Shown here: one piece after another, positions 37,129 through 54,641 of the stretch
Layout: the number at the start of each line of letters is the position of its first letter
Numbering within the stretch: position 1 is the first letter of the stretch
Source of the DNA: Streptomyces rubrogriseus
GTDB taxonomy: Bacteria; Actinomycetota; Actinomycetes; Streptomycetales; Streptomycetaceae
Reading direction: 5' to 3'
DNA length: 64,000 nucleotides
NCBI RefSeq assembly: GCF_027947575.1
Contig: NZ_CP116256.1
Coordinates: 7,378,001 to 7,442,000 of the forward strand
Notes under the pieces: generated by a model
Told to the model about the DNA's origin: nothing
Seen by the model: the letters and a program-made list of their open reading frames with translations, nothing else
The model's database searches: none
Position numbers and translations under genes: made by a program

Positions 37129-37158
37129 CTACGCGCGTAGCCGCAAACCGGCTACCCT
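37129..37158 (+). promoter_or_regulatory. Nucleoside operator and leaderless promoter of the PNP gene
   Basis: CTACGCGCGTAG (37129-37140) is a perfect 12-bp palindrome, identical to those before deoC and add. TACCCT at 37153-37158 is 6 nt before the GTG start, so transcription would begin at the start codon. Confidence 0.75.
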
Positions 37159-37164
37159 CTTCGC

Positions 37165-37989
37165 GTGAACGCATCTCTTCTTCCGGACGACATCCAGGGC
37201 GACCCGTACGCCGCCGCCGACGCCGCCGCGGCCCGCCTGCGCGAACTCACCGGCGCCGAGACCCACGACGTCGCCCTCGTGATGGGCTCCGGCTGGGCAC
37301 CGGCCGTGGACGCCCTGGGCGCCCCCGAGGCCGATCTCCAGGTCACCGACCTCCCGGGCTTCCCCGAGCCCGCGGTGGAGGGCCACGGCGGCAAGGTCCG
37401 CTCGTACACCCTCGGCGACAAGCGCGCACTGGTCTTCCTGGGCCGCACCCATTACTACGAGGGCCACGGCGTCGCCGCCGTCTCCCACGGCGTCCGCACC
37501 GCGGTCGCCGCCGGCGTCAAGACGATCATCCTGACCAACGGCTGCGGCGGCCTGCGCGAGGGCATGCGCCCCGGCCAGCCGGTCCTGATCAGCGACCACA
37601 TCAACCTGACCGCCACCTCCCCCATCGTCGGCGCCAACTTCGTCGACCTCACCGACCTCTACTCGCCCCGCCTGCGGGCGCTGTGCAAGGAGGTCGACGC
37701 CACGCTGGAGGAGGGCGTCTACGCCCAGTTCCCCGGCCCGCACTACGAGACCCCGGCCGAGATCCGCATGGCCCGCGTCATCGGTGCCGACCTGGTGGGC
37801 ATGTCGACGGTCCTGGAGGCGATCGCGGCCCGCGAGGCCGGCGCGGAGGTCCTGGGCATCTCCCTGGTCACCAACCTCGCCGCGGGCATGACGGGCGAGC
37901 CCCTCAACCACGAGGAGGTCCTCCAGGCGGGCCGCGACTCCGCCGCCCGCATGGGGAAGCTGCTCACCCAGGTACTGGGCCGGCTGTAG
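37165..37989 (+). CDS. Purine nucleoside phosphorylase
   Basis: 274 residues of the trimeric PNP type (PunA-like). It splits purine (deoxy)nucleosides with phosphate into base and (deoxy)ribose-1-phosphate. Visible motifs are [44 protein letters not shown] with the ligand residues, [23 protein letters not shown] and the Asn in [11 protein letters not shown]. The GTG start at 37165 fits a leaderless mRNA. The sugar phosphate goes on to the phosphomutase encoded next and to DeoC. Confidence 0.95.
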
Positions 37990-38058
37990 CCGAGGCCCAG
38001 TGGTCCGGCGTGGGCTTGGCACCCGGCACGGGGGTGGGTCGCGTGACCCGGCGCTGCC

Positions 38059-38100
38059 GGGGTGCCTCCCCCAGTGCCTGAACGGCCTGGGAGGTACCCC
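38059..38100. repeat. Palindromic extragenic repeat
   Basis: GGGGTGCCTCCC, 18 nt, GGGAGGTACCCC. I recognise it as a member of an interspersed Streptomyces element with a GGGG.ACCTCCC...GGGAGG.ACCCC core, and it may terminate the PNP transcript. Confidence 0.6.
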
Positions 38101-38111
38101 CACCGCCCACC

Positions 38112-38131
38112 CGTGCCGCCCCAGCGGCACG
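38112..38131 (+). terminator. Hairpin downstream of PNP
   Basis: CGTGCCGC-ccca-GCGGCACG, a perfect 8-bp stem about 120 bp past the PNP stop. Terminator candidate. Confidence 0.45.
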
Positions 38132-38360
38132 ACTGCCCGCGACTACGGGGGCGACGGCCCGCGGGCGCGTACGGCGGGAAGGGGACGTGTCGGGGGGTGT
38201 TCGCCCGCAGCGGTTGGCGCGTCAACGCGGCGAGCCCTTGTAGCCGACCGATTCCGCGCCGTTCCGAGGACGAGCACCCCCCGGCGCGGCCCCGACCCAC
38301 CCACAACGCACCGCGCTACGCGCACCCCCACCGAAGCCGCAGCGGCGCCGCAGGCACCCC

Positions 38361-38396
38361 GCACCCGCACCCGCACCCGCACCCGCACCCGCACCA
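38361..38396. repeat. GCACCC hexanucleotide tandem array
   Basis: Five perfect GCACCC units (38361-38390) plus a partial one, preceded by an imperfect unit at 38354-38360. The array ends 25 bp before the GTG of the phosphomutase gene, so unit number could change promoter or ribosome-site spacing. Confidence 0.8.
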
Positions 38397-38420
38397 CCGA
38401 CACCCGAGAGGCTGACCGAC

Positions 38421-40070
38421 GTGCAAGACGTGCAAGACGACCTCCTCGCACGAGCCAAGGCATGGCTGGCCGAGGACCCCGACGCGGACACCCGCGCGGA
38501 ACTCGCCCGCCTCATCGACGCCGAGGACCACGCCGAGCTCACCGCACGCTTCTCCGGCACCCTCCAGTTCGGCACCGCGGGCCTGCGCGGCGAACTGGGC
38601 GCCGGCCCGATGCGCATGAACCGCTCGGTCGTCATCCGCGCCGCCGCGGGCCTCGCCGCGTACCTCAAGAAAGAAGGCCGGCACGACGGCCTGGTGGTCA
38701 TCGGCTACGACGCCCGCCACAAGTCCGCCGACTTCGCCCGCGACACCGCCGCCGTCATGACCGGCGCCGGCCTCAGGGCGGCCGTACTCCCCCGCCCTCT
38801 CCCCACCCCCGTCCTCGCCTTCGCGATCCGCCACCTCGGCGCGGTCGCCGGAGTGGAGGTCACCGCCAGCCACAACCCGCCCCGGGACAACGGCTACAAG
38901 GTGTACCTCGGCGACGGCTCCCAGATCGTGCCCCCCGCCGACGCCGACATCGCCGCCGAGATCGACGCCGTGCGCACCCTCCACGACGTCCCCCGCCCCG
39001 ACACCGGCTGGCAGACCCTCGACGACGACGTCCTCGACGCCTACCTCACCCGCACGGACGCCGTCCTCGCCGCCGACTCCCCCCGCACCGCCCGCACGGT
39101 CTACACGGCGATGCACGGCGTGGGCAAGGACACCCTCCTCGCCGCCTTCGCCCGAGCCGGCTTCCCGCGCCCCACCCTCGTCACCGAGCAGGCCGACCCC
39201 GACCCGGACTTCCCCACCGTCGCCTTCCCCAACCCGGAGGAGCCCGGCGCGATGGACCTCGCCTTCGCGACGGCGAGGGCGGCGAACCCGGACCTGATCA
39301 TCGCCAACGACCCGGACGCGGACCGCCTGGCAGTGGCCGTACCCGACACCGCGGAGGCCACCGGCTGGCGCATGCTCCGGGGCGACGAGGTCGGCGCCCT
39401 GCTCGCCGCCCACCTGGTCACCCGCGGAGCGCACGGCACGTTCGCGGAGTCGATCGTCTCGTCGTCCCTCCTGACCCGCATCGCCGCGAAGGCGAACCTC
39501 CCCCACGTCGAAACCCTCACCGGCTTCAAGTGGATCGCCCGCGTCGAGAACATCCGCTACGGCTACGAGGAAGCCCTCGGCTACTGCGTCGACCCCGCGG
39601 GCGTCCGCGACAAGGACGGCATCACCGCGGCCCTCCTGATCACGGAACTGGCTTCCACCCTCAAGCAGGCCGGCCGCACCCTCCTCGACCTGCTCGACGA
39701 CATCGCCGTGGAACACGGCCTGCACGCCACGGACCAGCTCTCGGTCCGCGTGGAGGACCTCTCCCTGATCGCCGCGGCGATGAACCGCCTGCGCGAACAG
39801 CCCCCGGCAACCCTCGCGGGCCTCCCCGTCACCACCGCGGAGGACCTCACCCGGGGCACGGACACCCTCCCGCCCACGGACGGCCTGCGCTACACGCTCG
39901 ACGGAGCCAGGGTCGTCGTCCGCCCGAGCGGCACGGAGCCCAAGCTCAAGTGCTACCTGGAGGTGGTCGTCCCAGTGGCCGAGCACGCCGGCCTCCCCGC
40001 AGCCCGCGCCAAGGCTGCGGACCTGCTGACGGCGCTCAAGCGCGACCTGTCGACGGCGGCGGGCATCTGA
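38421..40070 (+). CDS. Alpha-D-phosphohexomutase family protein, probable phosphopentomutase
   Basis: 549 residues from a GTG. Family motifs are FGTAGLRGELGAGPMRMN, the phosphoserine loop VTASHNPPRDNGYKVY, the metal loop ANDPDADRLAV, the sugar loop GDEVGALLAAH and the C-terminal phosphate site RPSGTEPKLK. It resembles the PGM2-like group, whose human member is a phosphopentomutase. Between PNP and deoC it would convert ribose-1-P and deoxyribose-1-P to the 5-phosphates. Annotation as phosphomannomutase is the usual default and is less likely in this context. Confidence 0.85.
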   Translation: MQDVQDDLLARAKAWLAEDPDADTRAELARLIDAEDHAELTARFSGTLQFGTAGLRGELGAGPMRMNRSVVIRAAAGLAAYLKKEGRHDGLVVIGYDARHKSADFARDTAAVMTGAGLRAAVLPRPLPTPVLAFAIRHLGAVAGVEVTASHNPPRDNGYKVYLGDGSQIVPPADADIAAEIDAVRTLHDVPRPDTGWQTLDDDVLDAYLTRTDAVLAADSPRTARTVYTAMHGVGKDTLLAAFARAGFPRPTLVTEQADPDPDFPTVAFPNPEEPGAMDLAFATARAANPDLIIANDPDADRLAVAVPDTAEATGWRMLRGDEVGALLAAHLVTRGAHGTFAESIVSSSLLTRIAAKANLPHVETLTGFKWIARVENIRYGYEEALGYCVDPAGVRDKDGITAALLITELASTLKQAGRTLLDLLDDIAVEHGLHATDQLSVRVEDLSLIAAAMNRLREQPPATLAGLPVTTAEDLTRGTDTLPPTDGLRYTLDGARVVVRPSGTEPKLKCYLEVVVPVAEHAGLPAARAKAADLLTALKRDLSTAAGI

Positions 40071-40121
40071 AAGGCCGGGGGTGCGAGGCACCCCGGCCGC
40101 ACTCACCCACCCGCACCGCGG

Positions 40122-40826
40122 TCACCCCACCCCGAACAGCACCCCCAGCGCCACCGCCCCCGCCACGACCGGCACGACGATCTCGTACGCCCACCGCACC
40201 GTCACCCCGCCCTGCGAGCCCTCGGCCGCCTTCCGCGCCTCCCACAGCTCCCGCAGCTCGTCCATGACCTTGTCGGCCTCGGCCCGCACCGGCCCGTCGC
40301 CCTCGACGGCCGAGGACCCGGCACCACCGCCCCGCGTGCCGAACTGCCCCACGCCCCCGAGCACGCTCCCGCGCCTGCGCCCCCCGGCACCACCGGCGAG
40401 CCGCCGGTCCTCCTGCCGCGCGGCCTTCTTGCGCCCCCGCAGCGAGACGGGAACGGACCACAGCTGGAACTTGTCGCCGCCCTCGGTGAAGACCTCGTTC
40501 GAGTACGCGGACCGGAACGACTCGACCTGCGCCCAGGGCAGGACGATCACACGGAACGGATTGCGCACCCGCATCCGGTCGTCGTTGGCGAAGACGGCGG
40601 GCCGCACGGTGTAGGCGGCGACGAGCGGCACCAGGAAGACCAGCGCCGCGAGCGCCTTCCAGCGGGTGTCCCCCTCGCCCGTGACCAGGGCGTCGATGCC
40701 GAGCCACAGCGCGAGGGCGAGTACCAGCACGCCTCCGGAGATACCCGCGGGCGAGCGGTAGGCCCGGTCCTTGGACACGGGTCCCGAGGGCTGCGGCGAG
40801 GATGACTGGGGCTCCGGGGTGGTCAT
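40122..40826 (-). CDS. PH-domain (bPH) membrane protein
   Basis: 234 residues. Two helices near the N-terminus (GGVLVLALALWLGIDALV; ALAALVFLVPLVAAYTV) precede a bacterial PH-like segment (RVRNPFRVIVLPWAQVESFRSAYSNEVFT...LWSVPVSL). A Gly/Arg-rich linker and a final helix (IVVPVVAGAVALGVLFGVG) follow. Relatives (YdbS-like/PH6) are membrane proteins of unknown role. It is divergent from deoC, 109 bp away. Confidence 0.85.
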   Translation of the reverse strand: MTTPEPQSSSPQPSGPVSKDRAYRSPAGISGGVLVLALALWLGIDALVTGEGDTRWKALAALVFLVPLVAAYTVRPAVFANDDRMRVRNPFRVIVLPWAQVESFRSAYSNEVFTEGGDKFQLWSVPVSLRGRKKAARQEDRRLAGGAGGRRRGSVLGGVGQFGTRGGGAGSSAVEGDGPVRAEADKVMDELRELWEARKAAEGSQGGVTVRWAYEIVVPVVAGAVALGVLFGVG

Positions 40827-40910
40827 GCTGCCGATTGTGCCCGACGCCCCGCCCGGTGCTCACATGCGGTGCCGCTACATCGGACGAGCCCACGGGGGCT
40901 GTACAGACCG

Positions 40911-40929
40911 CTACGCGCGTAGATATGCT
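40911..40929 (+). promoter_or_regulatory. Nucleoside operator and leaderless promoter of deoC
   Basis: CTACGCGCGTAG at 40911-40922 ends 1 bp before the -10 element TATGCT (40924-40929). The GTG start at 40936 begins 6 nt later. Repressor bound here would block RNA polymerase directly. Confidence 0.78.
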
Positions 40930-40935
40930 CGTCTG

Positions 40936-41937
40936 GTGACCATGCCCACCACTGCACCCGCCGCAAACGGACCCGCACAGGGCCCCGCAAACGGACCCGC
41001 ACGCGGATTCGCCGACGTCACCGCGTCCGACAGCACCCTGCGCCGCTTCCTCCACGGACTGCCCGGCGTCGACACCGTCGGCCTGGAGGCGCGCGCCGCC
41101 TCCCTCGGCACCCGATCCATCAAGACCACCGCGAAGGCCTACGCCCTCGACCTGGCCATCTCGATGGTCGACCTGACGACGCTGGAAGGCGCGGACACCC
41201 CGGGCAAGGTCCGGGCGCTCGGCGCGAAGGCGGTCCGCCCCGACCCGACCGACCGCACGGCCCCGTCGACGGCGGCCGTCTGCGTCTACCCCGACATGGT
41301 GCCCACCGCCAGGGAAGCCGTCGCCGGCTCCGGCGTGAAGGTCGCGTCGGTCGCCACGGCGTTCCCGGCCGGCCGCGCCTCGCTGGCCGTCAAGCTGGCC
41401 GACGTGCGCGAGGCCGTGGCGGCGGGCGCGGACGAGGTCGACATGGTCATCGACCGCGGCGCGTTCCTGGCCGGTCAGTACATGAAGGTGTACGACGAGA
41501 TCACCGCCGTGCGCGAGGCCTGCGGGACGGCCGCCCGTCTGAAGGTCATCTTCGAGACCGGCGAGCTGTCGACGTACGACAACATCCGCCGCGCCAGCTG
41601 GCTCGGCATGCTGGCGGGCGCGGACTTCATCAAGACATCGACCGGCAAGGTCGCGGTCAACGCGACACCCGCCAACACGCTCCTCATGCTGGAGGCGGTC
41701 CGCGACTTCCGCGCCCAGACCGGCGTCCAGGTGGGCGTGAAGCCGGCCGGCGGCATCCGCACCGCGAAGGACGCGATCAAGTTCCTGGTCCTGGTCAACG
41801 AGACGGTGGGCGAGGACTGGCTGGACAACCACTGGTTCCGCTTCGGCGCCTCCTCGCTCCTCAACGACCTGCTGATGCAGCGCCAGAAGCTGGCCACAGG
41901 CCGTTACTCCGGCCCCGACTACGTGACGGTGGACTGA
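40936..41937 (+). CDS. deoC: Deoxyribose-phosphate aldolase
   Basis: 333 residues from the leaderless GTG at 40936. It cleaves 2-deoxyribose-5-phosphate to acetaldehyde and glyceraldehyde-3-phosphate. Class I aldolase residues: DEVDMVIDRGAFLAG, RLKVIFETGEL with the proton-relay Lys, DFIKTSTGK with the Schiff-base Lys, and GVKPAGGIRTA. The N-terminal 30 or so residues (Pro/Asn/Gly-rich) are an extension not seen in short DeoCs. An aldehyde dehydrogenase gene begins 5 bp after its stop, consistent with removal of the acetaldehyde. Confidence 0.95.
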   Translation: MTMPTTAPAANGPAQGPANGPARGFADVTASDSTLRRFLHGLPGVDTVGLEARAASLGTRSIKTTAKAYALDLAISMVDLTTLEGADTPGKVRALGAKAVRPDPTDRTAPSTAAVCVYPDMVPTAREAVAGSGVKVASVATAFPAGRASLAVKLADVREAVAAGADEVDMVIDRGAFLAGQYMKVYDEITAVREACGTAARLKVIFETGELSTYDNIRRASWLGMLAGADFIKTSTGKVAVNATPANTLLMLEAVRDFRAQTGVQVGVKPAGGIRTAKDAIKFLVLVNETVGEDWLDNHWFRFGASSLLNDLLMQRQKLATGRYSGPDYVTVD

Positions 41938-41942
41938 TCGAC

Positions 41943-43397
41943 ATGGCACCCACACCCTCATCCGCACCCGCGTTCGAGTACGCACCGGCACCCGAGTCCC
42001 GCGCGGTCGTCGACATCGCCCCCTCCTACGGCCTGTTCATCGACGGCGAGTTCACCGAGGCGGCCGACGGCAAGGTCTTCAAGACGGTCTCCCCCGCCAC
42101 CGAGGAGGTCCTCTCCGAGGTCGCCGAGGCCGGCGAGGCGGACGTCGACCGCGCCGTGAAGGCCGCCCGCAAGGCCTTCGAGAAGTGGTCGGCGCTGCCC
42201 GGCGCGGAGCGTGCGAAGTACCTCTTCCGCATCGCCCGCATCATCCAGGAACGCAGCCGGGAACTGGCCGTCCTGGAAACCCTCGACAACGGCAAGCCGA
42301 TCAGGGAGACGCGCGACGCCGACCTCCCCCTGGTCGCCGCGCACTTCTTCTACTACGCCGGCTGGGCCGACAAGCTCGACCACGCCGGCTACGGCGCGAA
42401 CCCCCGCCCCCTGGGCGTCGCGGGCCAGGTCATCCCCTGGAACTTCCCGCTCCTGATGCTGGCCTGGAAGATCGCCCCGGCGCTCGCCACCGGCAACACG
42501 GTGGTCCTGAAGCCCGCCGAGACGACCCCCCTCTCCGCCCTGTTCTTCGCGGACATCTGCCGCCAGGCCGGGCTGCCCAGGGGCGTCGTCAACATCATCA
42601 CCGGCGACGGCCGCGCCGGGGCGGCGCTCACCGCGCACCCCGACGTGAACAAGGTCGCCTTCACGGGCTCCACGGCGGTCGGCAAGCAGATCGCGCGCAC
42701 GGTCGCGGGCACCCGCAAGAAGCTCACCCTCGAACTGGGCGGCAAGGGCGCCAACATCGTCTTCGACGACGCCCCGATCGACCAGGCCGTCGAGGGCATC
42801 GTCAACGGCATCTTCTTCAACCAGGGCCAGGTCTGCTGCGCGGGCAGCCGCCTCCTGGTCCAGGAGTCGATCCACGACGAGCTGCTGGACTCCCTGAAGC
42901 GCAGGCTCACCACCCTCCGCCTGGGCGACCCGCTGGACAAGAACACGGACATCGGCGCGATCAACTCCGCCGAGCAGCTGGCCCGTATCACCGCACTCGC
43001 CTGCCAGGGCGAGGCGGAGGGCGCCGAGCGCTGGTCCCCGGCCTGCGAACTGCCCTCCTCCGGCTACTGGTTCGCCCCGACGCTCTTCACGAACGTCACC
43101 CAGGCGCACACGGTGGCCCGCGACGAGATCTTCGGCCCGGTCCTGTCCGTCCTCACCTTCCGCACGCCGGACGAGGCGGTCGCCAAGGCCAACAACACGC
43201 CGTACGGCCTGTCGGCGGGCATCTGGACGGAGAAGGGCTCGCGCATCCTGGCGGTCGCGAACAAGCTCCGTGCCGGTGTGATCTGGTCCAACACGTTCAA
43301 CAAGTTCGACCCGACGTCGCCGTTCGGCGGCTACAAGGAGTCGGGCTTCGGCCGCGAGGGCGGCCGCCACGGCCTGGAGGCGTACCTCGATGTCTGA
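41943..43397 (+). CDS. NAD-dependent aldehyde dehydrogenase
   Basis: 484 residues, a complete ALDH: IPWNFPLLMLAWKIAPALATGNTVVLKPAE (NAD site), LELGGKGANIVF with the catalytic Glu, NQGQVCCAGSRLLVQ with the catalytic Cys, and EIFGPVLSVLTF. It follows deoC at 5 bp and overlaps the next gene by 8 bp, so all three are one unit. The likely job is to oxidise acetaldehyde made by DeoC. Specificity is inferred from context only. Confidence 0.93.
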   Translation: MAPTPSSAPAFEYAPAPESRAVVDIAPSYGLFIDGEFTEAADGKVFKTVSPATEEVLSEVAEAGEADVDRAVKAARKAFEKWSALPGAERAKYLFRIARIIQERSRELAVLETLDNGKPIRETRDADLPLVAAHFFYYAGWADKLDHAGYGANPRPLGVAGQVIPWNFPLLMLAWKIAPALATGNTVVLKPAETTPLSALFFADICRQAGLPRGVVNIITGDGRAGAALTAHPDVNKVAFTGSTAVGKQIARTVAGTRKKLTLELGGKGANIVFDDAPIDQAVEGIVNGIFFNQGQVCCAGSRLLVQESIHDELLDSLKRRLTTLRLGDPLDKNTDIGAINSAEQLARITALACQGEAEGAERWSPACELPSSGYWFAPTLFTNVTQAHTVARDEIFGPVLSVLTFRTPDEAVAKANNTPYGLSAGIWTEKGSRILAVANKLRAGVIWSNTFNKFDPTSPFGGYKESGFGREGGRHGLEAYLDV

Positions 43398-44289
43398 GCG
43401 ACTCAGCGTGCTGAAGACCTACAAGCTGTACGTCGGCGGGAAGTTCCCGCGTTCCGAGAGCGGCCGGGTGTACGAGGTGAGCGACGCGAAGAACAGGTGG
43501 CTGGCCAACGCCCCCCTCTCCTCCCGCAAGGACGCCCGTGACGCGGTGGTCGCCGCGCGCAAGGCGTTCGGCGGCTGGTCCGGCGCGACGGCGTACAACC
43601 GCGGGCAGATCCTCTACCGGATCGCCGAGATGCTGGAGGGCCGCCGCGACCAGTACGTCGCGGAGGTCGCCGACGCGGAAGGCCTGTCGAAGTCGAAGGC
43701 GGCGGCCCAGGTGGACGCCGCGATCGACCGCTGGGTCTGGTACGCGGGCTGGACCGACAAGATCACCCAGGTGGTCGGCGGCGGCAACCCGGTCGCGGGC
43801 CCCTTCTTCAACCTCTCCTCCCCGGAGCCGACCGGCGTCGTGGCCGTCCTGGCCCCGCAGAAGTCGTCCTTCCTGGGCCTGGTGTCCGTCGTCGCCCCGG
43901 TCATCGCTACGGGCAACACGGCAGTGGTGGTGGCCTCGGAGAAGTCCCCCCTCCCCGCCCTCTCCCTGGGCGAGGTCCTGGCCACCTCCGACCTGCCCGG
44001 CGGTGTGGTCAACATCCTCTCCGGCCGCACGGCGGAGATCGCCGCCCCGCTCGCCGCCCACCAGGACGTCAACGCGATCGACCTCGCGGGCGCCGACGAG
44101 GAGCTGGCGAGGGAGCTGGAGATCGCGGCGGCGGACAATCTCAAGCGCGTCCTGCGTCCACAGCCTGTGGACGACGCGGGCGCGGACTGGTCCGCGACCC
44201 CGGGCACGGACCGCATGACGGCGTTCCTGGAGACGAAGACGGTCTGGCACCCGACGGGCGCCCTGGGCGCCTCCGGCTCGTCGTACTGA
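43390..44289 (+). CDS. Aldehyde dehydrogenase-family protein without catalytic domain
   Basis: 299 residues. The first 250 align with the NAD-binding half of ALDHs (YKLYVGGKFPRSESGRVYEV, FGGWSGATAYNRGQILYRIAEMLEGR), but PWNFP is replaced by LAPQKSSF, VVLKPAE by VVVASEK, and the LELGG Glu and the catalytic Cys are absent. It stops where the catalytic domain would start. The frame is clean and translationally coupled (8-bp overlap) to a full ALDH, so it looks like a kept, non-catalytic partner subunit and not a random truncation. Confidence 0.85.
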   Translation: MSERLSVLKTYKLYVGGKFPRSESGRVYEVSDAKNRWLANAPLSSRKDARDAVVAARKAFGGWSGATAYNRGQILYRIAEMLEGRRDQYVAEVADAEGLSKSKAAAQVDAAIDRWVWYAGWTDKITQVVGGGNPVAGPFFNLSSPEPTGVVAVLAPQKSSFLGLVSVVAPVIATGNTAVVVASEKSPLPALSLGEVLATSDLPGGVVNILSGRTAEIAAPLAAHQDVNAIDLAGADEELARELEIAAADNLKRVLRPQPVDDAGADWSATPGTDRMTAFLETKTVWHPTGALGASGSSY

Positions 44290-44319
44290 CCGAATCCTCC
44301 GTCAGCCGACGCCGACGGG

Positions 44320-44351
44320 CCGCGGCTCCTCCCCGTCCGGAGGAGCCGCGG
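44320..44351. terminator. Bidirectional terminator
   Basis: CCGCGGCTCCTCC-ccgtcc-GGAGGAGCCGCGG, a perfect 13-bp stem between the convergent ALDH and kinase genes. Confidence 0.92.
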
Positions 44352-44354
44352 TCT

Positions 44355-46415
44355 TCACTCGGCCGAGCAGGGCCTCAGTTCCGGCCGGCTGGGCGCGGTC
44401 TTCCGTCCCGTCAGCGGGGACAGGTCCTTCATGTACATTTCCGCCCACTCCTTTCCGGCCAGGATCTCCTTGAGCCCCGAGCACACCTTGCTCTTCAGGA
44501 GCGGGTCGTCCTTCCGCATCGCCACCCCGTAGGGCTCCGTGCCCGCGCCGCTGGGCAGCAGCTTCAGATGCGCCGGATCGTTCTGGGCGTACCCGGCGAG
44601 AAGCACGTCGTCCGAGGCGACCGCGTACACGCTCGAGCGCTTGTCCAGCAGTCTTTCCACGCACTCCTTGTAGGTGTCGGGCTGCCACTTCCCCGTGGTG
44701 TACCCGTCCTCCTTCAGCCTGTCCGCGTACGTGGAGTCCCGCGCCGTGCACACCTCGACCTGGTTCCGCTTCACGTCGACGGCTTCGCCGAGGTCGTACT
44801 TGGCGGAGTTCTTGCGGACGAGGAGGCTGCTGCCCGCCTTGTAGTAGGGGCCGACGAAGCTGATGCCGTCCCGCTTCTCACGCTCGGGCGTCATGCTGTA
44901 CGAGGCGACGACGAGGTCCACCTCGCCGTTCTTCAGCTTGCTCGCCCGGTTGGCCGTGGTCACCCCGTAGAAGTCCACCTGTGACTTGTCGTAGCCCAGT
45001 TTGCCGGCGAGGGCGTAGGCGATGTCGACGTCGAACCCGCTCCACCCGCCGGTGTCCTTGTCGTAGAAGCTCAGCCCGGGCTGGTCCTCCTTCGCCCCGA
45101 CCGTCAGCCGCTTCCTGGCGCTCTTCCACTGCTCCCACGCCTGCTCCGCGTCGCCCCCGGCGGCTCCCCCTCCCTGCTGCCCGGAGGCGTCGTCCTGCTT
45201 GCCCCCGGAGTCGCCCCGCGAGACGAGCCAGCCGCCACCGGCCAGCAGTACGACACACGCCGCGGCCGCCGCCACCTTCCAGCCCGACAGCCGCCCGCGG
45301 CCGCCGCCCGACGCCACCGGCGACGGCACGGAGGGAACGGCTCCGGAGGGAACGGCCCCGGAGGACGACGCGGCGGGCGCCGCCGCGGTCACCGCCGGCA
45401 CGGGCTCCGAGTCGGGCGACGCGGACTCCGAGGCGGGCGGCGCGGACTCCGAGGCGGGCGGCGCGGGCCGGGCCGTGGGCGGGGGTGCGGGTGCGGGTGT
45501 GGCGGCCCTGGCGGGGGTCGGCCTGCCGGGGTCCGCGAGGACGTCCCGGAGCATCTCCTCCGCCCCGGCGGCGTCCAGGCGCCGGTCCGGGTCCGTCGTC
45601 AACAGCCCCTGGATGACCGGGCCGAGGGGGCCGGCGTACCGGAGCACGGGGTCGGGCGACTGCTGGATGTTCGCCTGCACCTCCCAGACCTCGTTGCCGC
45701 CGAAGGGCAGGCGGCCCTCGACCATCTCGTACAGCGTGACGCCCAGGGCCCACAGGTCGGAGGCGGAGGTGGGGCCGGGGGCGGCGGGAGCGAAGAGTTC
45801 GGGCGCCAGGTAGGGGGGCGTGCCGATGATGCCGCCGTGCCGGGTCACCCGGTCCGCGCCCTCGAAGGTGGCGATGCCGAAGTCCACCAGGACCACCTGG
45901 CCGCCGTCCCGCACCAGGACGTTGCCCGGCTTGACGTCGCGGTGCAGGACCGACGCCTCGTGAACCGCCCGCAGCCCCTGGGCCATCTGGAGGCCGATCT
46001 CCGCGGCCCTGGGCACGCCGAGGACCCGGTCGCGGCTCAACAGGTCGGCCAGCGACCGCCCTTCGAGCAGCTTCATCACGATCCAGACCTGGTCGGCGGT
46101 CTCGATCTGGTCGTGCACCGTCACCACGTTCTGGTGCTCGATCTTGGCGAGCGCCTCCGCCTCGCGACGGGCGCGCTGCATCGCCGCCTTCTGCGTGTCC
46201 GGGGTCATGGCCCTGCGGTCCAGGAGCCCCTTCACCGCGACGAACCGGCGCAGCCGCCGGTCGTGGGCCTTCCAGACCTCGCCCATGCCGCCGCTGCCGA
46301 TGGGCTCCAGCAGCTCGTAGCGGCCCTCGATCACGGTGTGGGAGACGGGGGGACGATCCTCGGGATGCCCGTCGGCTCCGCCGCCGGCCCCGTTGATTCC
46401 GTCGTCGTTGTGCAC
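44355..46415 (-). CDS. Receptor Ser/Thr protein kinase with extracellular solute-binding (SBP_bac_3) domain
   Basis: 686 residues from a GTG (AGGGGG upstream). PknB-type kinase domain at about 32-295: GSGGMGEVWKA, VAVK (Lys62), HRDVKPGN (158-165), DFG (178-180), GTPPYLAPE. A Pro/Ser-rich juxtamembrane region with PPASESA repeats follows, then one membrane helix (380-399). Outside is a GluB/ArtJ-type binding domain, residues about 435-670 (LTVGAKEDQPGLSFYDKDTGGWSGFDVDIAYALAGKLG, LKNGEVDLVVASYSMTPERE, DVLLAGYAQND). It probably senses an amino acid or similar solute outside and phosphorylates cytoplasmic targets. No transporter genes adjoin it. Confidence 0.93.
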   Translation of the reverse strand: MHNDDGINGAGGGADGHPEDRPPVSHTVIEGRYELLEPIGSGGMGEVWKAHDRRLRRFVAVKGLLDRRAMTPDTQKAAMQRARREAEALAKIEHQNVVTVHDQIETADQVWIVMKLLEGRSLADLLSRDRVLGVPRAAEIGLQMAQGLRAVHEASVLHRDVKPGNVLVRDGGQVVLVDFGIATFEGADRVTRHGGIIGTPPYLAPELFAPAAPGPTSASDLWALGVTLYEMVEGRLPFGGNEVWEVQANIQQSPDPVLRYAGPLGPVIQGLLTTDPDRRLDAAGAEEMLRDVLADPGRPTPARAATPAPAPPPTARPAPPASESAPPASESASPDSEPVPAVTAAAPAASSSGAVPSGAVPSVPSPVASGGGRGRLSGWKVAAAAACVVLLAGGGWLVSRGDSGGKQDDASGQQGGGAAGGDAEQAWEQWKSARKRLTVGAKEDQPGLSFYDKDTGGWSGFDVDIAYALAGKLGYDKSQVDFYGVTTANRASKLKNGEVDLVVASYSMTPEREKRDGISFVGPYYKAGSSLLVRKNSAKYDLGEAVDVKRNQVEVCTARDSTYADRLKEDGYTTGKWQPDTYKECVERLLDKRSSVYAVASDDVLLAGYAQNDPAHLKLLPSGAGTEPYGVAMRKDDPLLKSKVCSGLKEILAGKEWAEMYMKDLSPLTGRKTAPSRPELRPCSAE

Positions 46416-47792: not shown

Positions 47793-47831
47793 AGCGGGAC
47801 TGGACGGACCCCCCGGCCCTCCAGTCCCGCT
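47793..47831 (+). terminator. Terminator after uridine kinase
   Basis: AGCGGGACTGGA, 15 nt, TCCAGTCCCGCT: a perfect 12-bp stem 21 bp past the stop. Confidence 0.85.
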
Positions 47832-47840
47832 CCCTTTCCA

Positions 47841-47908
47841 CCCCCGTGGATCCCCCGTGATCCCCGGCCCCCGTTGTTCCCCCGTGTCCCCCGTGGTGCT
47901 TCCCCGTG
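47841..47908. repeat. CCCCCGTG repeat array
   Basis: CCCCCGTG or a one-base variant occurs at 47841, 47852, 47868, 47879 and 47888, and CCCCGTG at 47902. Units are 9-16 bp apart, between udk and sigQ. No other feature is seen from 47832 to 48004. Confidence 0.6.
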
Positions 47909-48004
47909 AGTAAGAGCCCGGGTCCCTCCCCCTGATACACCCCGGCTCGAAACTTTTTTCACGGGGCCCCGCCCCTCGGGCCCGGTCCCCCCCGGCCCGT
48001 ACCT

Positions 48005-48736: not shown

Positions 48737-48816
48737 CTCGCGCCCCCCGTCGTGGACTGCCGGTTGCCTGTGACGAAAAGCCTGCCGCGGCGACTTCATG
48801 GCCGTGTCCGCCGACT

Positions 48817-48832
48817 GTCACAGAGCTGTCAC
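48817..48832. promoter_or_regulatory. AfsQ1 box in the sigQ-afsQ1 divergent promoter
   Basis: GTCAC-agagct-GTCAC matches the published AfsQ1 consensus GTnAC-n6-GTnAC exactly. A third GTCAC follows at 48841-48845. Confidence 0.8.
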
Positions 48833-48944
48833 AGGGGTCCGTCACCGCTGCACCACCCTTCCTTCACAGGGTCCGGCGGCGTCGTGGGAGCCCAACCGCA
48901 CCCGCAGGTCGAACACCGGCCCCCTCATGGGCCAGAATGAGCGC

Positions 48945-49622
48945 GTGCCTTCCCTGTTGCTGATCGAGGACGACGACGCCATCCGTACGGCCCTGGAGCT
49001 CTCCCTGACCCGCCAGGGCCATCGGGTGGCCACCGCTGCCAGTGGTGAGGACGGTCTGAAGCTGTTGCGCGAGCAGCGGCCGGACCTGATCGTGCTGGAC
49101 GTGATGCTGCCCGGCATCGACGGTTTCGAGGTGTGCCGTCGCATCCGGCGCACCGACCAGCTGCCGATCATCCTGCTGACCGCGCGCAACGACGACATCG
49201 ACGTGGTCGTCGGTCTCGAGTCGGGCGCCGACGACTACGTCGTCAAACCCGTCCAGGGCCGGGTCCTGGACGCCCGGATCCGGGCCGTGCTGCGGCGCGG
49301 GGAGCGGGAGTCCACCGACTCGGCGAGCTTCGGCAGCCTGGTCATCGACCGTTCGGCGATGACCGTGACGAAGAACGGCGAGGACCTTCAGCTGACGCCC
49401 ACCGAGCTGCGGCTGCTCCTGGAGCTGAGCCGACGGCCGGGACAGGCGCTGTCCCGGCAGCAGTTGCTGCGGCTGGTGTGGGAGCACGACTACCTCGGCG
49501 ACTCCCGGCTGGTGGACGCGTGCGTGCAGCGGCTGCGCGCCAAGGTCGAGGACGTGCCGTCGTCCCCGACCCTGATCCGTACCGTGCGGGGTGTCGGCTA
49601 CCGGCTGGATCCGCCTCAGTGA
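48945..49622 (+). CDS. afsQ1: Two-component response regulator AfsQ1
   Basis: 225 residues, the known size. OmpR/PhoB family: receiver domain with acidic pocket EDDD (8-11), phospho-acceptor Asp52 in VLDVMLPG and Lys in VVKP, and a C-terminal winged helix (LTPTELRLLLELSRRPGQALSRQQLLRLVWEH...VDACVQRLRAKV). It responds to nitrogen/glutamate-related conditions through AfsQ2 and controls antibiotic synthesis and nitrogen genes. GTG 48945 lies 6 nt after CAGAAT, suggesting leaderless mRNA. Overlaps afsQ2 by 4 bp (GTGA). Confidence 0.96.
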   Translation: MPSLLLIEDDDAIRTALELSLTRQGHRVATAASGEDGLKLLREQRPDLIVLDVMLPGIDGFEVCRRIRRTDQLPIILLTARNDDIDVVVGLESGADDYVVKPVQGRVLDARIRAVLRRGERESTDSASFGSLVIDRSAMTVTKNGEDLQLTPTELRLLLELSRRPGQALSRQQLLRLVWEHDYLGDSRLVDACVQRLRAKVEDVPSSPTLIRTVRGVGYRLDPPQ

Positions 49623-51226
49623 CACGGGAACACCAGGGGGGTACCCGCGGCCTGGCCGCGGCGCGCAAGGGTTTCTGGTCCGGTCTGCGCTTCACCAGCC
49701 TGCGCCTCAGGCTGGTCCTCGTCTTCGGCCTGGTCGCGCTCACCGCCGCCGTGTCCGCGTCCGGCATCGCGTACTGGCTGAACCGGGAGGCGGTGCTGAC
49801 CCGTACCCAGGACGCGGTGCTGCGGGACTTCGAGCAGGAGATGCAGAACCGGGCGGGCGCGCTGCCGGAGCACCCCACGCAGGACGAGGTGCAGCACACG
49901 GCGGGGCAGATGGCCAACAGCAGCCAGCGGTTCTCGGTGCTGCTGGTCGCCGAGAGCGCCGACGGCACCGCCGTGTACGGCAGCTCCGGCGGCCTGGGCG
50001 GCTTCGCGCTGTCCGACGTGCCCGAGTCGCTGCGCACGGCCGTGAACAAGGAGCAGAAGCTCACCTCGGCCAACAAGCACCGGTACCACCTGTACTGGCA
50101 GCGGACAACCGACGACGGCACCCCGTACCTGGTGGCCGGCACGAAGGTGATCGGCGGCGGGCCGACCGGGTACATGCTCAAGTCGCTGGAACCGGAGGCC
50201 AAGGACCTGAACTCGCTCGCCTGGTCGCTGGGGATCGCCACCGCGCTCGCCCTGCTCGGTTCGGCGCTGCTCGCGCAGGCCCTGGCGACGACCGTGCTGA
50301 AGCCCGTGCACCGGCTCGGGGTCGCGGCGCGGCGGCTGGGCGAGGGGAAGCTGGACACCCGGCTGCGGGTGTCCGGCACCGACGAACTGGCCGACCTGTC
50401 GCGCACCTTCAACAGCGCCGCCGAGAACCTGGAGAAGCGGGTCGCGGACATGGCGGGCCGGGAGCAGGCCTCCCGGCGCTTCGTCGCGGACATGAGCCAC
50501 GAGCTGCGTACACCGCTGACGGCGCTCACCGCGGTGACGGAAGTGCTGGAGGAGGAGCTGGAGTACGCGGGCGAGGGCGAGGGGGAGGGCGGGAGTTTCG
50601 ACCCGATGGTCGAGCCCGCGGTGCGGCTGGTGGTGAGCGAGACGCGGCGGCTGAACGACCTGGTGGAGAACCTGATGGAGGTCACCCGCTTCGACGCGGG
50701 CACCGCCCGCCTGGTCCTGGACGACGTCGACGTCGCCGACCAGATCACCGCCTGCATCGACGCCCGGGCCTGGCTGGACGCCGTCGACCTGGAGGCCGAG
50801 CGCGGCGTCCACGCCCGCCTCGACCCGCGCCGGCTGGACGTCATCCTCGCCAACCTGATCGGCAACGCGCTCAAGCACGGCGGGTCGCCGGTCAGGGTCT
50901 CCGTGGCGCGGGCGGACGACGAGATCGTGATCCGGGTGCGGGACAACGGTCCCGGCATCCCCGAGGACGTCCTGCCGCACGTCTTCGACCGCTTCTACAA
51001 GGCGAGCGCGTCCCGGCCGCGCTCCGAGGGCAGCGGGCTCGGTCTGTCCATCGCACTGGAGAACGCGCACATCCACGGCGGTGAGATCACCGCGGAGAAC
51101 GCCCCGGAGGGCGGTGCGGTGTTCACCCTGCGGCTGCCGCAGGACCCGTCGCCGCCCGCCGACGAGGACGGCGGGGCCGACGAGGAGACCGAGGACCGGG
51201 GCAAGGACGCGAAGGGACAGGTCTGA
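49619..51226 (+). CDS. afsQ2: Two-component sensor histidine kinase AfsQ2
   Basis: 535 residues, the known size. Two membrane helices (LVLVFGLVALTAAVSASGIAYW and LAWSLGIATALALLGSALLAQAL) enclose an extracellular sensor of about 140 residues. HAMP follows (VLKPVHRLGVAARRLGEGKLDTRL), then the H-box DMSHELRTPLTALT (His294), N-box ANLIGNALKHGG and G-boxes VRDNGPGIPE and GSGLGLSIALENAHIHGG. It phosphorylates AfsQ1. Its stop shares one base with the next ATG. Confidence 0.96.
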   Translation: MTREHQGGTRGLAAARKGFWSGLRFTSLRLRLVLVFGLVALTAAVSASGIAYWLNREAVLTRTQDAVLRDFEQEMQNRAGALPEHPTQDEVQHTAGQMANSSQRFSVLLVAESADGTAVYGSSGGLGGFALSDVPESLRTAVNKEQKLTSANKHRYHLYWQRTTDDGTPYLVAGTKVIGGGPTGYMLKSLEPEAKDLNSLAWSLGIATALALLGSALLAQALATTVLKPVHRLGVAARRLGEGKLDTRLRVSGTDELADLSRTFNSAAENLEKRVADMAGREQASRRFVADMSHELRTPLTALTAVTEVLEEELEYAGEGEGEGGSFDPMVEPAVRLVVSETRRLNDLVENLMEVTRFDAGTARLVLDDVDVADQITACIDARAWLDAVDLEAERGVHARLDPRRLDVILANLIGNALKHGGSPVRVSVARADDEIVIRVRDNGPGIPEDVLPHVFDRFYKASASRPRSEGSGLGLSIALENAHIHGGEITAENAPEGGAVFTLRLPQDPSPPADEDGGADEETEDRGKDAKGQV

Positions 51227-51837
51227 TGACCGTACGCCGTCTGCCGGCCCTCTCCGGGCTCGCGGCAGTGGCCGTGCTGCTGACCGGGTGCGGCATCCGC
51301 GCCACCGAGGTGCCCACCGACTACGGTCCCGCGCCGTCGCGGGTGCGCTGCTCGCTCGCCGAGCCGGACGTGTCGACGCGGACCACACCCGGGCTGCCGG
51401 CGCAGGTGTTCCTGCTGTGCGGCTCGTCGCTGGTGGCCGTGGACCGCACGGTGCGGGTGCCGGAGGGCGCCTCGGACTCGGGGCGGCGGGTGCTGGTGGC
51501 CCAGGGACTGCTGGACGAGCTGACGGCACAGCCGTCGGCCGCGGAGAAGGAGGCCGGTTACACGTCGGACGTGCGCCGCGGGATCGTGGTGACGGGACCG
51601 CGTTCCGGCGACCCCGAGGACACGCTGCGGCTGAGCACCGATCCCGACGACCTGACCTCGTACGCGCTCGCGCAGGTGGTGTGCACCTTCTCCGACTCCG
51701 CCGCGGCCGAGGGCGACGGCTCGGTGATCCTGGCCGGGCCCACCGACCGGTCCGCCCGCCGCTACTCCTGCACGGACGAGGTCCGGGCCCGGCCGGGCAG
51801 CAACGAACCGCCCGCGGACGAGGTCACGGGCGGCTGA
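51226..51837 (+). CDS. Lipoprotein co-transcribed with afsQ1-afsQ2
   Basis: 203 residues. A lipoprotein signal with LLTGCG lipobox precedes a GerM/LpqB-like pattern: PAQVFLLCGSSLVAVDRTVRV and VLVAQGLLDELTAQPSAAE (similar to sporulation/spore-morphology GerMN domains). ATG overlaps the afsQ2 stop (TGATG), so it is translationally coupled to the sensor kinase. Its orthologue in S. coelicolor lies in the same operon and may modulate AfsQ2. Role inferred. Confidence 0.88.
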   Translation: MTVRRLPALSGLAAVAVLLTGCGIRATEVPTDYGPAPSRVRCSLAEPDVSTRTTPGLPAQVFLLCGSSLVAVDRTVRVPEGASDSGRRVLVAQGLLDELTAQPSAAEKEAGYTSDVRRGIVVTGPRSGDPEDTLRLSTDPDDLTSYALAQVVCTFSDSAAAEGDGSVILAGPTDRSARRYSCTDEVRARPGSNEPPADEVTGG

Positions 51838-51848
51838 CGGGCCGCACC

Positions 51849-51873
51849 GCGCGGCACCGGGCGGGTGCCGCGC
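51849..51873 (+). terminator. Terminator after the afsQ operon
   Basis: GCGCGGCACC-n5-GGTGCCGCGC, a perfect 10-bp stem just past the stop. A second hairpin GGCCCC-gca-GGGGCC follows at 51877-51891. Confidence 0.85.
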
Positions 51874-51963
51874 GAAGGCCCCGCAGGGGCCGTGTGGCGC
51901 AAGCCTCACCCTTGCGTGGAGGCGCCCGGAACCGCGCACGGCGGGGGGCGCGTCTAGGGGGAC

Positions 51964-52515
51964 GTGCAGCGTCATGGGTTCCTCGGCGGCAGCGCCGCGC
52001 TCCGCATCCGTGTGACAGGAAGTGTTCTCCTGGTCGCACATCTCGCGTTCGTCGCCTGGTACGCGCTGCGGCCGCTGGACGTCCCCTGGGTACTGCCGCC
52101 CAACCTGGAGCCGTTCGCCGGGATCCGCGCCGACCTGGCGCTGGGCGGGCGCGCGGCGGCCCGTTCGATCGGCGGCTCGCTGGCCCTGCTGGCGCCGCTC
52201 GGCGTCCTGCTGCCGGTGGCCGGCGGGCGGCTGCACGTCTCGCCGCTGGCGTCCCTGCTGCGCACCACGGCCGCGGCCGCCCTGCTGTCGGTGGGCGTCG
52301 AGCTGCTGCAGACCGGGGTGCCCGGTCAGGTCGTCGACATCGACTCGGTGCTGCTGAACACGGTGGGCGTGGCCCTCGCGCACCTCGCCGTCGTCCCGGC
52401 GGGCCGGGCCCGGCTCCGCCGCTGGTACCGGCAGCACGGGCGGGAGGGCCTCCTCCAGGAGGAGCCCGGTCAGGGTCGGACCCCGACGATTCCCAGGGTC
52501 GGTATCGCCCCGTAG
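51964..52515 (+). CDS. VanZ family membrane protein
   Basis: 183 residues from a GTG, with four to five hydrophobic segments (GSVLLVAHLAFVAWYAL; IGGSLALLAPLGVLLPVAG; TTAAAALLSVGVELLQ; VLLNTVGVALAHLAVV). The motif VELLQ...VVDIDSVLLNTVGVALAH is the VanZ signature. VanZ confers low-level teicoplanin resistance in enterococci, but most actinobacterial members have no known role. Confidence 0.9.
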   Translation: MQRHGFLGGSAALRIRVTGSVLLVAHLAFVAWYALRPLDVPWVLPPNLEPFAGIRADLALGGRAAARSIGGSLALLAPLGVLLPVAGGRLHVSPLASLLRTTAAAALLSVGVELLQTGVPGQVVDIDSVLLNTVGVALAHLAVVPAGRARLRRWYRQHGREGLLQEEPGQGRTPTIPRVGIAP

Positions 52516-52610
52516 AGCGACGCTTTGTGCGGTTCGTCTCCGTAGCGTGGAGGGCAGATGAAGGGGAAGCCGGAGGGCAGCCCCACCCACACGCTCACGA
52601 AGGAGCCGCG

Positions 52611-52814
52611 ATGTCCAGCCTCGCCCGCCCCACCCACGGCCGCATGATCGGCGGAGTGTGCGCCGCGCTGGCCCGGCGCTTCGGCACCTCCGCCGGCACG
52701 ATGCGGGTGATCTTCCTGGTCTCCTGCCTGCTGCCCGGCCCGCAGTTCCTGCTCTACCTGGCCCTGTGGATCCTGCTCCCGTCCGAGGAGAAGGCCGCCC
52801 GTACGGCCTGGTGA
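52611..52814 (+). CDS. PspC domain membrane protein
   Basis: 67 residues with AAGGAG 7 nt before the ATG. RMIGGVCAALARRFGTSAGTMRVIFLVSCLLPGPQFLLYLALWILLP is a complete PspC domain. Such small proteins are associated with envelope-stress regulation, and here it follows the afsQ region. A bidirectional terminator lies 30 bp downstream. Confidence 0.92.
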   Translation: MSSLARPTHGRMIGGVCAALARRFGTSAGTMRVIFLVSCLLPGPQFLLYLALWILLPSEEKAARTAW

Positions 52815-52843
52815 CAGACGTACCACCCCTCTGGTACACCGAT

Positions 52844-52872
52844 GGGGCGCACCCGGCGACCGGGTGCGCCCC
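52844..52872. terminator. Bidirectional terminator
   Basis: GGGGCGCACCCG-n5-CGGGTGCGCCCC, a perfect 12-bp stem between the PspC gene and the convergent secreted-protein gene. Confidence 0.9.
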
Positions 52873-52901
52873 TTCGGCGCGTACGGGGGAGGCGGTGGCG
52901 C

Positions 52902-53270
52902 TCAGCCGCCCAGCGGGAGGCCGTTGACCGGCAGGCCCTGGGTGGGCAGCCCCTTCAGCGGCACACCGCCGAGCAGCTTGGCGACCGGCTCGGTCGGGCC
53001 CTCGGCGAGCTGCTCGGCGACCACCTGCTCGACCACCGGCTGCGCGACGGTCAGACCGGTGTGGGAGATCTTGCGGCCCTGCTCCAGCACGTTGCCCGCG
53101 CCGGGCGCCACCTGGGAGACGGTCTCCGCGGGGAGGGTGCGGGCGACGGAGTCCACCGTCTGCGCGGTGTCCGGGAGCTCGGGGGCCGCGGTGGCCGCGC
53201 CCGCGCCGGCGGCGGCGAAGGCGGCGCCGAGGGCGGCGACACCGAGGGTCTTGGCAGCAGACTGCTTCAT
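52902..53270 (-). CDS. Small secreted hypothetical protein
   Basis: 122 residues with a signal peptide (TLGVAALGAAFAAAGAGAATAAP) and GAGGA 9 nt upstream. The mature part has Gln/Glu/Val-rich helical segments and ends in GLPTQGLPVNGLPLGG-type repeats. Like the protein at 46573 it belongs to a loosely defined Streptomyces group with no known function. Confidence 0.78.
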   Translation of the reverse strand: MKQSAAKTLGVAALGAAFAAAGAGAATAAPELPDTAQTVDSVARTLPAETVSQVAPGAGNVLEQGRKISHTGLTVAQPVVEQVVAEQLAEGPTEPVAKLLGGVPLKGLPTQGLPVNGLPLGG

Positions 53271-53359
53271 GAAGATGCGTCCTCGTAATGGGGTGACGGG
53301 GATGTGAGCGGTCCTTGACCGTAAACACGCGCCACCCCCGGCGGCAAACATCGAAATGC

Positions 53360-53382
53360 GGACGGATGGTGAATGTCCGTCC
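53360..53382 (-). terminator. Terminator after adenosine deaminase
   Basis: GGACGGA-n9-TCCGTCC, a 7-bp stem about 30 bp past the stop at 53411. Confidence 0.55.
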
Positions 53383-53410
53383 ACGTTTCCGTATTACCGT
53401 CGTCCCGCGT

Positions 53411-54613
53411 TCAGTCGTCGGATTCCGAAGAACCGCTGGTCGAAGCCGTCTGCTGGAACAGCCATTCGGATTTCAGCTCGGCATATCCGGGCTTGATGAC
53501 GTCATTGATCATGGCCAGTCGTTCATCGAAAGGAATGAACGCTGATTTCATCGCATTGACGGAGAACCACTGCATGTCGTCGAGCGTGTAGCCGAATGCC
53601 TCGACCAGGTGCTCGAATTCCCGGCTCATGCTGGTGTGGGACATCAGCCGGTTGTCGGTGTTGACGGTGGCCCGGAAGTGCAGCCGGCGCAGCAGCCCGA
53701 TGGGGTGCTCGGCGTAGGAGTCGGCGGCGCCGGTCTGGAGGTTGGAGCTGGGGCACAGCTCCAGCGGGATCCGCTTGTCGCGGACGTAGGAGGCGAGCCG
53801 CCCGAGCTTGACCGAGCCGTCCTCGTGGACCTGGATGTCGTCGATGATGCGCACCCCGTGCCCGAGCCGGTCGGCGCCGCACCACTGAAGAGCCTGCCAG
53901 ATGGACGGCAGCCCGAAGGCCTCGCCGGCGTGGATGGTGAAGTGGTTGTTCTCCCGCTTCAGGTACTCGAAGGCGTCCAGGTGCCGGGTGGGCGGGTAAC
54001 CGGCCTCGGCGCCCGCGATGTCGAATCCGACCACGCCCAGATCGCGGTAGCGGTTGGCGAGTTCGGCGATCTCCAGGGAGCGGGCCGCGTGCCGCATCGC
54101 GGTGAGCAGGGCGCCGACCCGGATGCGGTGGCCGTTGTCCCGGGCGCGCCGCTCGCCCTCCCGGAAGCCCTCGTTGACGGCCTCGACGACCTCTTCGAGG
54201 GTCAGCCCCTTCTCCAGGTGCTGCTCGGGGGCGTACCGCACCTCGGCGTAGACGACGCCGTCCTCGGCGAGGTCCTGCGCGCACTCGGCGGCGACCCGGA
54301 CCAGCGCGTCGCGGGTCTGCATGACGCCGACGGTGTGGGAGAAGGTCTCCAGGTACCGCTCCAGGGACCCGGAGTCGGCGGCCTGCCGGAACCAGGTGCC
54401 GAGCAGGTCGGCGTCGGTTTCGGGGAGGTCCCCGTAGCCCGTCTCGCGGGCGAGTTCCACGACCGTGCCCGGCCGCAGACCGCCGTCGAGGTGATCGTGC
54501 AGCAGGACCTTCGGCGCCCGGCGGATCCGGTCCGGCGACGGTGTCTTCGAGACGGTCGCGGTATGCGTCGCGCTGCTCGCCGCGGCGCTCTTCTCGGTGC
54601 TTTGGCTCGTCAT
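53411..54613 (-). CDS. add: Adenosine deaminase
   Basis: 400 residues. It converts (deoxy)adenosine to (deoxy)inosine, the substrate of the PNP enzyme. Zinc ligands HDHLDGG near the N-terminus, [10 protein letters not shown] with the catalytic His and Glu, LGHGVRI, and a final zinc Asp in [13 protein letters not shown] 54613 is leaderless: TAGAGT sits exactly 6 nt before it, and the CTACGCGCGTAG palindrome just upstream of that. Confidence 0.96.
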
Positions 54614-54619
54614 TTGCGC

Positions 54620-54641
54620 ACTCTAACTCCTACGCGCGTAG
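54620..54641 (-). promoter_or_regulatory. Nucleoside operator and leaderless promoter of add
   Basis: CTACGCGCGTAG at 54630-54641 (minus-strand direction) is followed 4 nt later by TAGAGT (54625-54620) and, after 6 nt, by the ATG at 54613. Third copy of the palindrome shared with PNP and deoC. Confidence 0.76.

Follow-up and report, generated by a model that had tools for sequence, protein, structure and literature searches.

A 12-bp palindrome before nucleoside uptake and catabolism genes of Streptomyces rubrogriseus, a probable operator of a scavenging regulon in Streptomycetaceae

The promoters of three nucleoside catabolism genes of Streptomyces rubrogriseus carry the same 12-bp palindrome, CTACGCGCGTAG, which raises the question of whether a single regulator acts on all of them, and of which protein this could be. 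The three genes lie in a stretch of 64,000 nucleotides (contig NZ_CP116256.1, positions 7,378,001 to 7,442,000; hereafter, the window), and the palindrome is found at 37129-37140 in the promoter of pnp (purine nucleoside phosphorylase), at 40911-40922 in that of deoC (deoxyribose-phosphate aldolase) and at 54630-54641 in that of add (adenosine deaminase). From comparative sequence evidence, we propose that a single sequence-specific repressor, binding as a dimer, uses CTACGCGCGTAG as its operator and controls nucleic-acid and nucleoside scavenging in Streptomycetaceae, a reading to which we give a probability of about 0.8.

An exact scan of the window recovered the three perfect copies that a previous sequence-only reading had described, and no further site was found in the rest of the 64 kb at up to two mismatches, in agreement with the absence claimed there. 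It should be noted that shuffled versions of the window contained on average 4.3 sites at up to two mismatches, so three such sites are no excess; what exceeds expectation is the exactness of all three, and not their number. When the arms alone were considered (CTAC-N4-GTAG), the window presented 3 occurrences against 0.13 expected, and three or more were reached in 0 of 100 shuffles.

In the complete genome, a single contig of 8.41 Mb, CTACGCGCGTAG occurs exactly 5 times and the reversed control 0 times. The sequence-only reading had warned that many unrelated matches would speak against a regulon; the five copies precede pnp, deoC, add, a nucleoside ABC transporter-cdd-deoA operon and purS, that is, four nucleoside operons and one purS gene. 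Thus, the same operator stands before several operons of nucleoside uptake and catabolism (pnp, deoC, add and ABC-cdd-deoA). The fourth copy, which had been predicted for the deoA-cdd-transporter operon past the right edge of the window, is indeed present at genome position 7444776 (L006:4776-4787), 2,776 bp beyond that edge. It is located ahead of an ABC ATPase gene, which is followed by two permeases, the cytidine deaminase and the thymidine phosphorylase, and two genes for PnrA-like binding proteins are found directly upstream of the site.

The conservation of the site was evaluated at several taxonomic levels. The 61 genomes of the genus (our own included) yielded 231 exact sites and only 37 control matches, with a Poisson tail of about 1e-101 that is only indicative because the genomes are related. 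At least one exact site was present in 149 of 150 genomes sampled from the family; the only genome without an exact copy had one-mismatch sites at add and deoC, and none at pnp. In a class-wide sample, the exact site was found in 28/28 genomes of the genus and in 10 of 268 others. Among the best 80 pnp loci in GTDB (79 labelled Streptomyces and one Kitasatospora), the exact site preceded pnp in all 80 and deoC in all 64 in which deoC was found, this gene not being found in the remaining 16. In the pnp promoters of these loci the 12 bp were constant and most flanking positions variable, and in the deoC promoters a block of flanking sequence was conserved along with the site. Since the 80 loci belong to the closest relatives, they weigh less than the add orthologues, which were searched for in 28 genomes picked largely for having few exact copies. 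Orthologues of at least 79% identity were present in 25 of them, 23 with the perfect site and 2 with a one-base variant; in the remaining genomes, three in number, there were only distant add homologues (60% identity at most), with no site at up to two mismatches there. The conservation before orthologous genes that the sequence-only reading had asked about is, then, observed at the three promoters, and the site also recurs before the transporter operon.

Outside the genus the site becomes scarcer. Other genera of the family presented one-base variants at pnp and deoC. In order relatives from two other families, no site at up to two mismatches was detected within about 180 bp around the start of pnp (10/10) or deoC (8/8). 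In 8 of the 10 extra-genus genomes with an exact copy (loci L128-L134, L204, L205 and L357; G219 and G299 were left out), no site was seen by eye before a recognizable nucleoside gene; these loci were judged without a family search, and in L132, L134 and L357 no gene was called. One genome outside the genus, G146, had three exact sites, apparently unrelated. Since the operator is present in the promoters of the family and absent at pnp and deoC of the order relatives, it seems to have arisen in Streptomycetaceae, or to have survived only there.

The position of the site with respect to the putative promoters is compatible with repression. Plausible -10 hexamers, assigned by eye, were found 12, 1 and 4 bases downstream of the site for pnp, deoC and add, which makes the earlier placement of the palindrome just upstream of the -10 element plausible; in each case the start codon comes 6 bases past the hexamer. 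For pnp (forward strand), the putative -10 is TACCCT at 37153-37158, mostly strongly conserved across the 80 loci, and the predicted start, also by eye, is the GTG at 37165, which would make the transcript leaderless. For deoC (forward strand), it is TATGCT at 40924-40929, where ATATGCTC is invariant in 55 aligned promoters, with a predicted GTG start at 40936; for add (reverse strand), it is TAGAGT at 54620-54625, with a predicted ATG start at 54613. In leaderless actinobacterial genes the start codon lies about at the transcription start, downstream of the -10. A sigma-70 consensus scan of 36800-44500, covering pnp and deoC only, reported no promoter, a result of little weight because the genome is high in GC. 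With these hexamers, and if the genes are leaderless, the operator would occupy the -35 end of the pnp promoter (about -36 to -25) and the spacer of the deoC and add promoters. Elsewhere, again going by hexamers assigned by eye, it is found past the probable -10 (transporter operon), over the -35 (purS) or in the first codons (a second adenosine deaminase, add2). As this position relative to the promoter varies, a repressor fits better than an activator.

Sites with one mismatch could extend the regulon. In our genome, 15 such sites were found. Of these, 11 lay near a gene start, counted from 350 bases ahead of the start to 130 within the gene, whereas only 7 of the 26 control sites did (p = 0.005). 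Furthermore, 6 of the 11 near-start sites were at nucleic-acid or nucleobase genes against 0 of the 7 in the control, one of which (L449) had no Pfam match; the p value of 0.025 is only indicative because the function classes were assigned after the genes had been seen. These six sites are located at add2 (L379:4493), at two 5'-nucleotidases (35 and 69 bases ahead of the presumed start), at an NCS1-type permease (48 bases, and also 94 from a divergent gene), at an NCS2-type permease (125 bases, and also 66 from a divergent DUF2530 gene) and within the early codons of a secreted protein with a GmrSD_C domain, which is probably an HNH nuclease. The remaining five have no obvious link with nucleosides: a carbon-nitrogen hydrolase (whose best NCBIfam match, below cut-off, is the N-carbamoylputrescine amidase model), a GDSL lipase, an oligopeptide-type permease, a GH25 hydrolase and a gene named rpoB-like by eye.

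Additional isolated exact sites in the family were taken from the matches listed and the loci fetched; the 34 examined are no census, and the following counts refer to them. The gene add2 presented an exact site in at least 6 genomes (L030, L186, L187, L192, L194 and L247), and each of the six proteins is more than 90% identical to the reference copy. The site spans codons 3-7 of the gene (MTATRVD) and includes a GTA codon, which is rare in Streptomyces. Exact sites were also observed at purN-purH in at least 4 genomes of two genera, at purS in at least 2 genomes and at a secreted 5'-nucleotidase in at least one (L196). The L196 protein is 65% identical to a 5'-nucleotidase of our genome, and their neighbours are 74% identical; therefore, it is the same locus, whose site is perfect in the other species and has one mismatch in ours. 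In six genomes (L199, L235, L239, L241, L245 and L248), the exact operator precedes genes for secreted-looking proteins with He_PIG or CBM_4_9 matches, or weak ones to ABC_transp_aux or InhA-MAM; these are candidate nucleic-acid-related exoproteins.

On this basis the following mechanism can be proposed. The bound repressor would block RNA polymerase, and its release by one shared signal, which would report either abundant nucleosides or scarce purines and could be a deoxyribose or ribose phosphate or a purine, would start uptake, phosphorolysis, deamination and pentose breakdown together; the weaker sites would extend the control to the release of nucleosides outside the cell. The inducer is likely a nucleoside-derived metabolite, while the purine synthesis genes found in some lineages hint instead at a signal of purine status. 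A broader proposal, to which we give slightly less than even odds, is that a family-wide repressor of Streptomycetaceae, not described before, uses one 12-bp operator, almost without variation, to manage nucleic acids as a single resource. This would cover a secreted nuclease, 5'-nucleotidases, nucleoside and nucleobase transporters and the intracellular degradation that ends in pentose phosphates, in several lineages also de novo purine synthesis, with add2 carrying its operator in the first codons.

Several observations weigh against the proposed regulon. Taken together, the one-mismatch sites of our genome (15) do not outnumber those of the control (26). Among the 34 extra exact sites of the family, 13 have no evident nucleoside link, several of them being within coding sequence, 6 precede related secreted proteins without assigned function and 2 precede a HAD phosphatase without assigned substrate. 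In addition, de novo purine genes regulated together with catabolic ones suit a simple model of inducible catabolism poorly. Finally, no regulator gene bears the operator, and nothing thus ties it to a particular protein: the sequence-only reading had expected one regulator gene among the matches, and none was found among the exact sites, nor was any seen behind the 5 exact and 15 one-mismatch sites of our genome. Autoregulation through CTACGCGCGTAG is consequently without support.

The purine genes lead to the alternative that survives best, namely that the operator serves a PurR-like purine homeostasis and is relieved at purine scarcity, rather than governing nucleoside catabolism. The sites at purS and purNH, together with the one-mismatch sites at nucleobase permeases and 5'-nucleotidases, make up a mix of targets like that of the PurR regulon of Bacillus subtilis. 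Against this, the near-universal targets include deoC with its aldehyde dehydrogenases, and deoA and cdd belong to the transporter operon, all of these being genes of carbon catabolism, and the purNH and purS sites come from 6 genomes among the matches listed. We regard this alternative as a real possibility, held tentatively and at clearly less than even odds.

Within the proposed repressor-operator regulon, the next matter is the family of the repressor. A LacI-family protein with a nucleoside or purine ligand is conceivable, but on balance doubtful. The centre of CTACGCGCGTAG, where C meets G between the half-sites CTACGC and GCGTAG, agrees with the usual shape of a LacI operator, and the genome encodes 31 LacI domains above cut-off. 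Two Streptomyces proteins of this family, GvmR and ScnR1, have operators that are palindromes of even length (PMC12292694). One LacI gene, beside a presumably glnR-like gene, has a 5'-nucleotidase gene with a one-mismatch site some 5 kb away. However, the 32 LacI matches of the genome carry none of its 20 sites with at most one mismatch, only five two-mismatch sites were found at 30 of these loci, and the scan of the cluster genes showed none for a LacI protein. The best placed of the five, around the start of the LacI gene beside glnR, was judged, without a computed test, not to exceed chance. As for the GntR type, which the sequence-only reading had named together with LacI, no evidence linked such a protein to the operator, GntR genes not having been searched for in the genome.

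The best single candidate is the DeoR/GlpR-family gene beside pnp (33932-34921, reverse strand), although we consider it unlikely, somewhat more so than a LacI protein, to be the repressor. Like DeoR of E. coli, its product would be induced by a phosphorylated (deoxy)ribose. The protein has HTH_DeoR and DeoRC domains, and the only sequence relative found in the PDB is the E. coli deoxyribose operon repressor. All 23 family genomes tested had an orthologue of at least 76% identity, with the same DNA-binding residues 1-44 throughout, and 0 of 8 order relatives had one (best matches of 37-45%, or none at the E-value cut-off). The distribution of the gene thus matches that of the operator, as it is present in the family and absent as an orthologue from the order relatives. 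It adjoins pnp in 79/80 loci, a linkage that may reflect mere conservation of gene order. The sequence-only reading did not see this gene as the obvious candidate, given the different palindrome at its own promoter. This doubt holds in part, since the alignment of 23 upstream regions revealed a strongly conserved element, CTGCTGAAAGCAG (34949-34961, reverse strand), unlike CTACGCGCGTAG; the gene nevertheless remains ahead of any other single one. Autoregulation through the regulon operator, which is not at its promoter, is not obligatory. Other points argue against it. Two genomes of another family encode homologues (53-60% identity) that share its SEVTVRRD recognition helix, and the 20 kb around these contained neither a nucleoside gene of the cluster nor an operator at up to one mismatch. 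Moreover, the protein reached 76.7 bits and did not pass the cut-off of 244 of the NCBIfam model for the E. coli DeoR equivalog; it was nearer to AgaR/GlpR, and below the cut-off of all these models. The upstream region (34925-35010 of the window; L324-L346 for the 23 orthologues) is long and strongly conserved, with the arrangement GGTGCAAAC-CTGAAAGCAG-CGGTC-GTTAC-GTC, and CTGCTGAAAGCAG had no further exact copy in the window or in the 13 loci scanned.

ArgR was also considered. In an S. coelicolor argR mutant, deoxyribose-phosphate aldolase SCO4914 is decreased, and the transcripts of adenosine deaminase and of a secreted nucleotidase are increased (PMC3293853); ArgR was rejected as the regulator because these effects on target genes run in opposite ways. 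Finally, a transcription-initiation or DNA-structure element without a dedicated regulator, as the alternating CG core and the adjacency to the -10 could suggest, is very improbable, since the distance and side relative to the -10 differ between promoters and the exact copies of our genome are restricted to one metabolic area.

With respect to known systems, E. coli DeoR and CytR control deoCABD, udp, cdd and the nup genes. As there, one palindromic operator joins nucleoside uptake and catabolism, and a DeoR-domain gene is present in the Streptomyces cluster; in contrast, CTACGCGCGTAG is unlike the known E. coli operators, and the Streptomyces targets may include 5'-nucleotidases and, in some species, purine synthesis. 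The purS/purNH and nucleobase permease targets are shared with the PurR regulons of B. subtilis and E. coli (for E. coli, also PMC4052901), from which the regulon proposed here differs in its catabolic core targets, the pur-gene sites being those of the six genomes among the matches listed. NupR of Bacillus thuringiensis, a GntR/HutC regulator of a nucleoside permease (PMC9430930), is likewise a dedicated nucleoside regulator in a Gram-positive bacterium, of another phylum. AdeR, HpxR and UriR are LacI-family nucleoside regulators, similar in being local regulators of nucleoside use, whereas no LacI protein is tied to CTACGCGCGTAG (PMC4052901 for the three regulators). A purine iModulon is mentioned in a transcriptome study of S. 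coelicolor (PMC11538686). Searches of full texts with the literal 12-mer and 10-mer gave unrelated matches only, judged by title, and no description of the operator was found among the papers searched on Streptomyces nucleoside regulation; the S. coelicolor motif survey of Studholme (2004) was not covered, and an earlier description could be there. The kind of system, an operator-defined metabolic regulon, is ordinary, and the specific regulon appears to be new. Given a defined regulon on an orphan operator, a single pull-down should lead straight to the nucleoside regulator. Development in Streptomyces involves lysis of part of the mycelium, and some Streptomyces antibiotics are made from nucleosides; the operator would be a handle on the recycling of DNA from dying hyphae and on the supply of nucleoside-antibiotic precursors.

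Two further loci with related sites were observed. At the map locus (L016:1501, L042:1501 and L195:3001), the gene behind the operator, which has one mismatch in L016, encodes a carbon-nitrogen hydrolase in one species, while two other species have a HAD phosphatase there, and a small gene of the Cro-type helix-turn-helix class lies alongside in all three. This gene and a PucR-like one of the same cluster (L417:5878-7524, named by eye, with weak NCBIfam matches) were discarded as regulators, as proximity alone pointed to them. At L218/L237 (G430), there are three tandem CACTAC-N4-GTAGTG boxes, one with an ATAT centre and one with the CTACGCGCGTAG core, adjoining a gene that is CopD-like by eye. 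Boxes of this type resemble the BlaI/CopY operator, and those of L218/L237 probably belong to another regulator.

As regards the genes around the sites in the window, pnp (37165-37989, forward strand) was identified by Pfam PNP_UDP_1 and NCBIfam PUNP (341.6 bits, cut-off 302.6), its product is 98% identical to the PNP of Streptomyces hyderabadensis, and it is followed by a gene of the phosphoglucomutase/phosphomannomutase family in the position of deoB (38421-40070, forward strand; Pfam PGM_PMM domains). The add gene (53411-54613, reverse strand) matches NCBIfam PRK09358.1-2 with 644 bits. The transporter operon, which begins beyond the window with its ATPase, includes on the reverse strand an ABC permease (62682-63956; BPD_transp_2) and, distally, the thymidine/pyrimidine nucleoside phosphorylase deoA (60985-62268; NCBIfam PRK05820.1). 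Between them, the C-terminal part (62293-62688) of the frame 62293-63879 is presumably the cytidine deaminase cdd, given the CAEC and PCGRC motifs in its translation. The deoC gene (40936-41937, forward strand; Pfam DeoC), with its GTG start picked by eye within the longer frame 40771-41937, is followed on the same strand by two aldehyde dehydrogenase genes (41943-43397 and 43390-44289; Pfam Aldedh). In another genome, G012, deoC is preceded by two exact operators 70 bp apart (L250:3001 and 3071).

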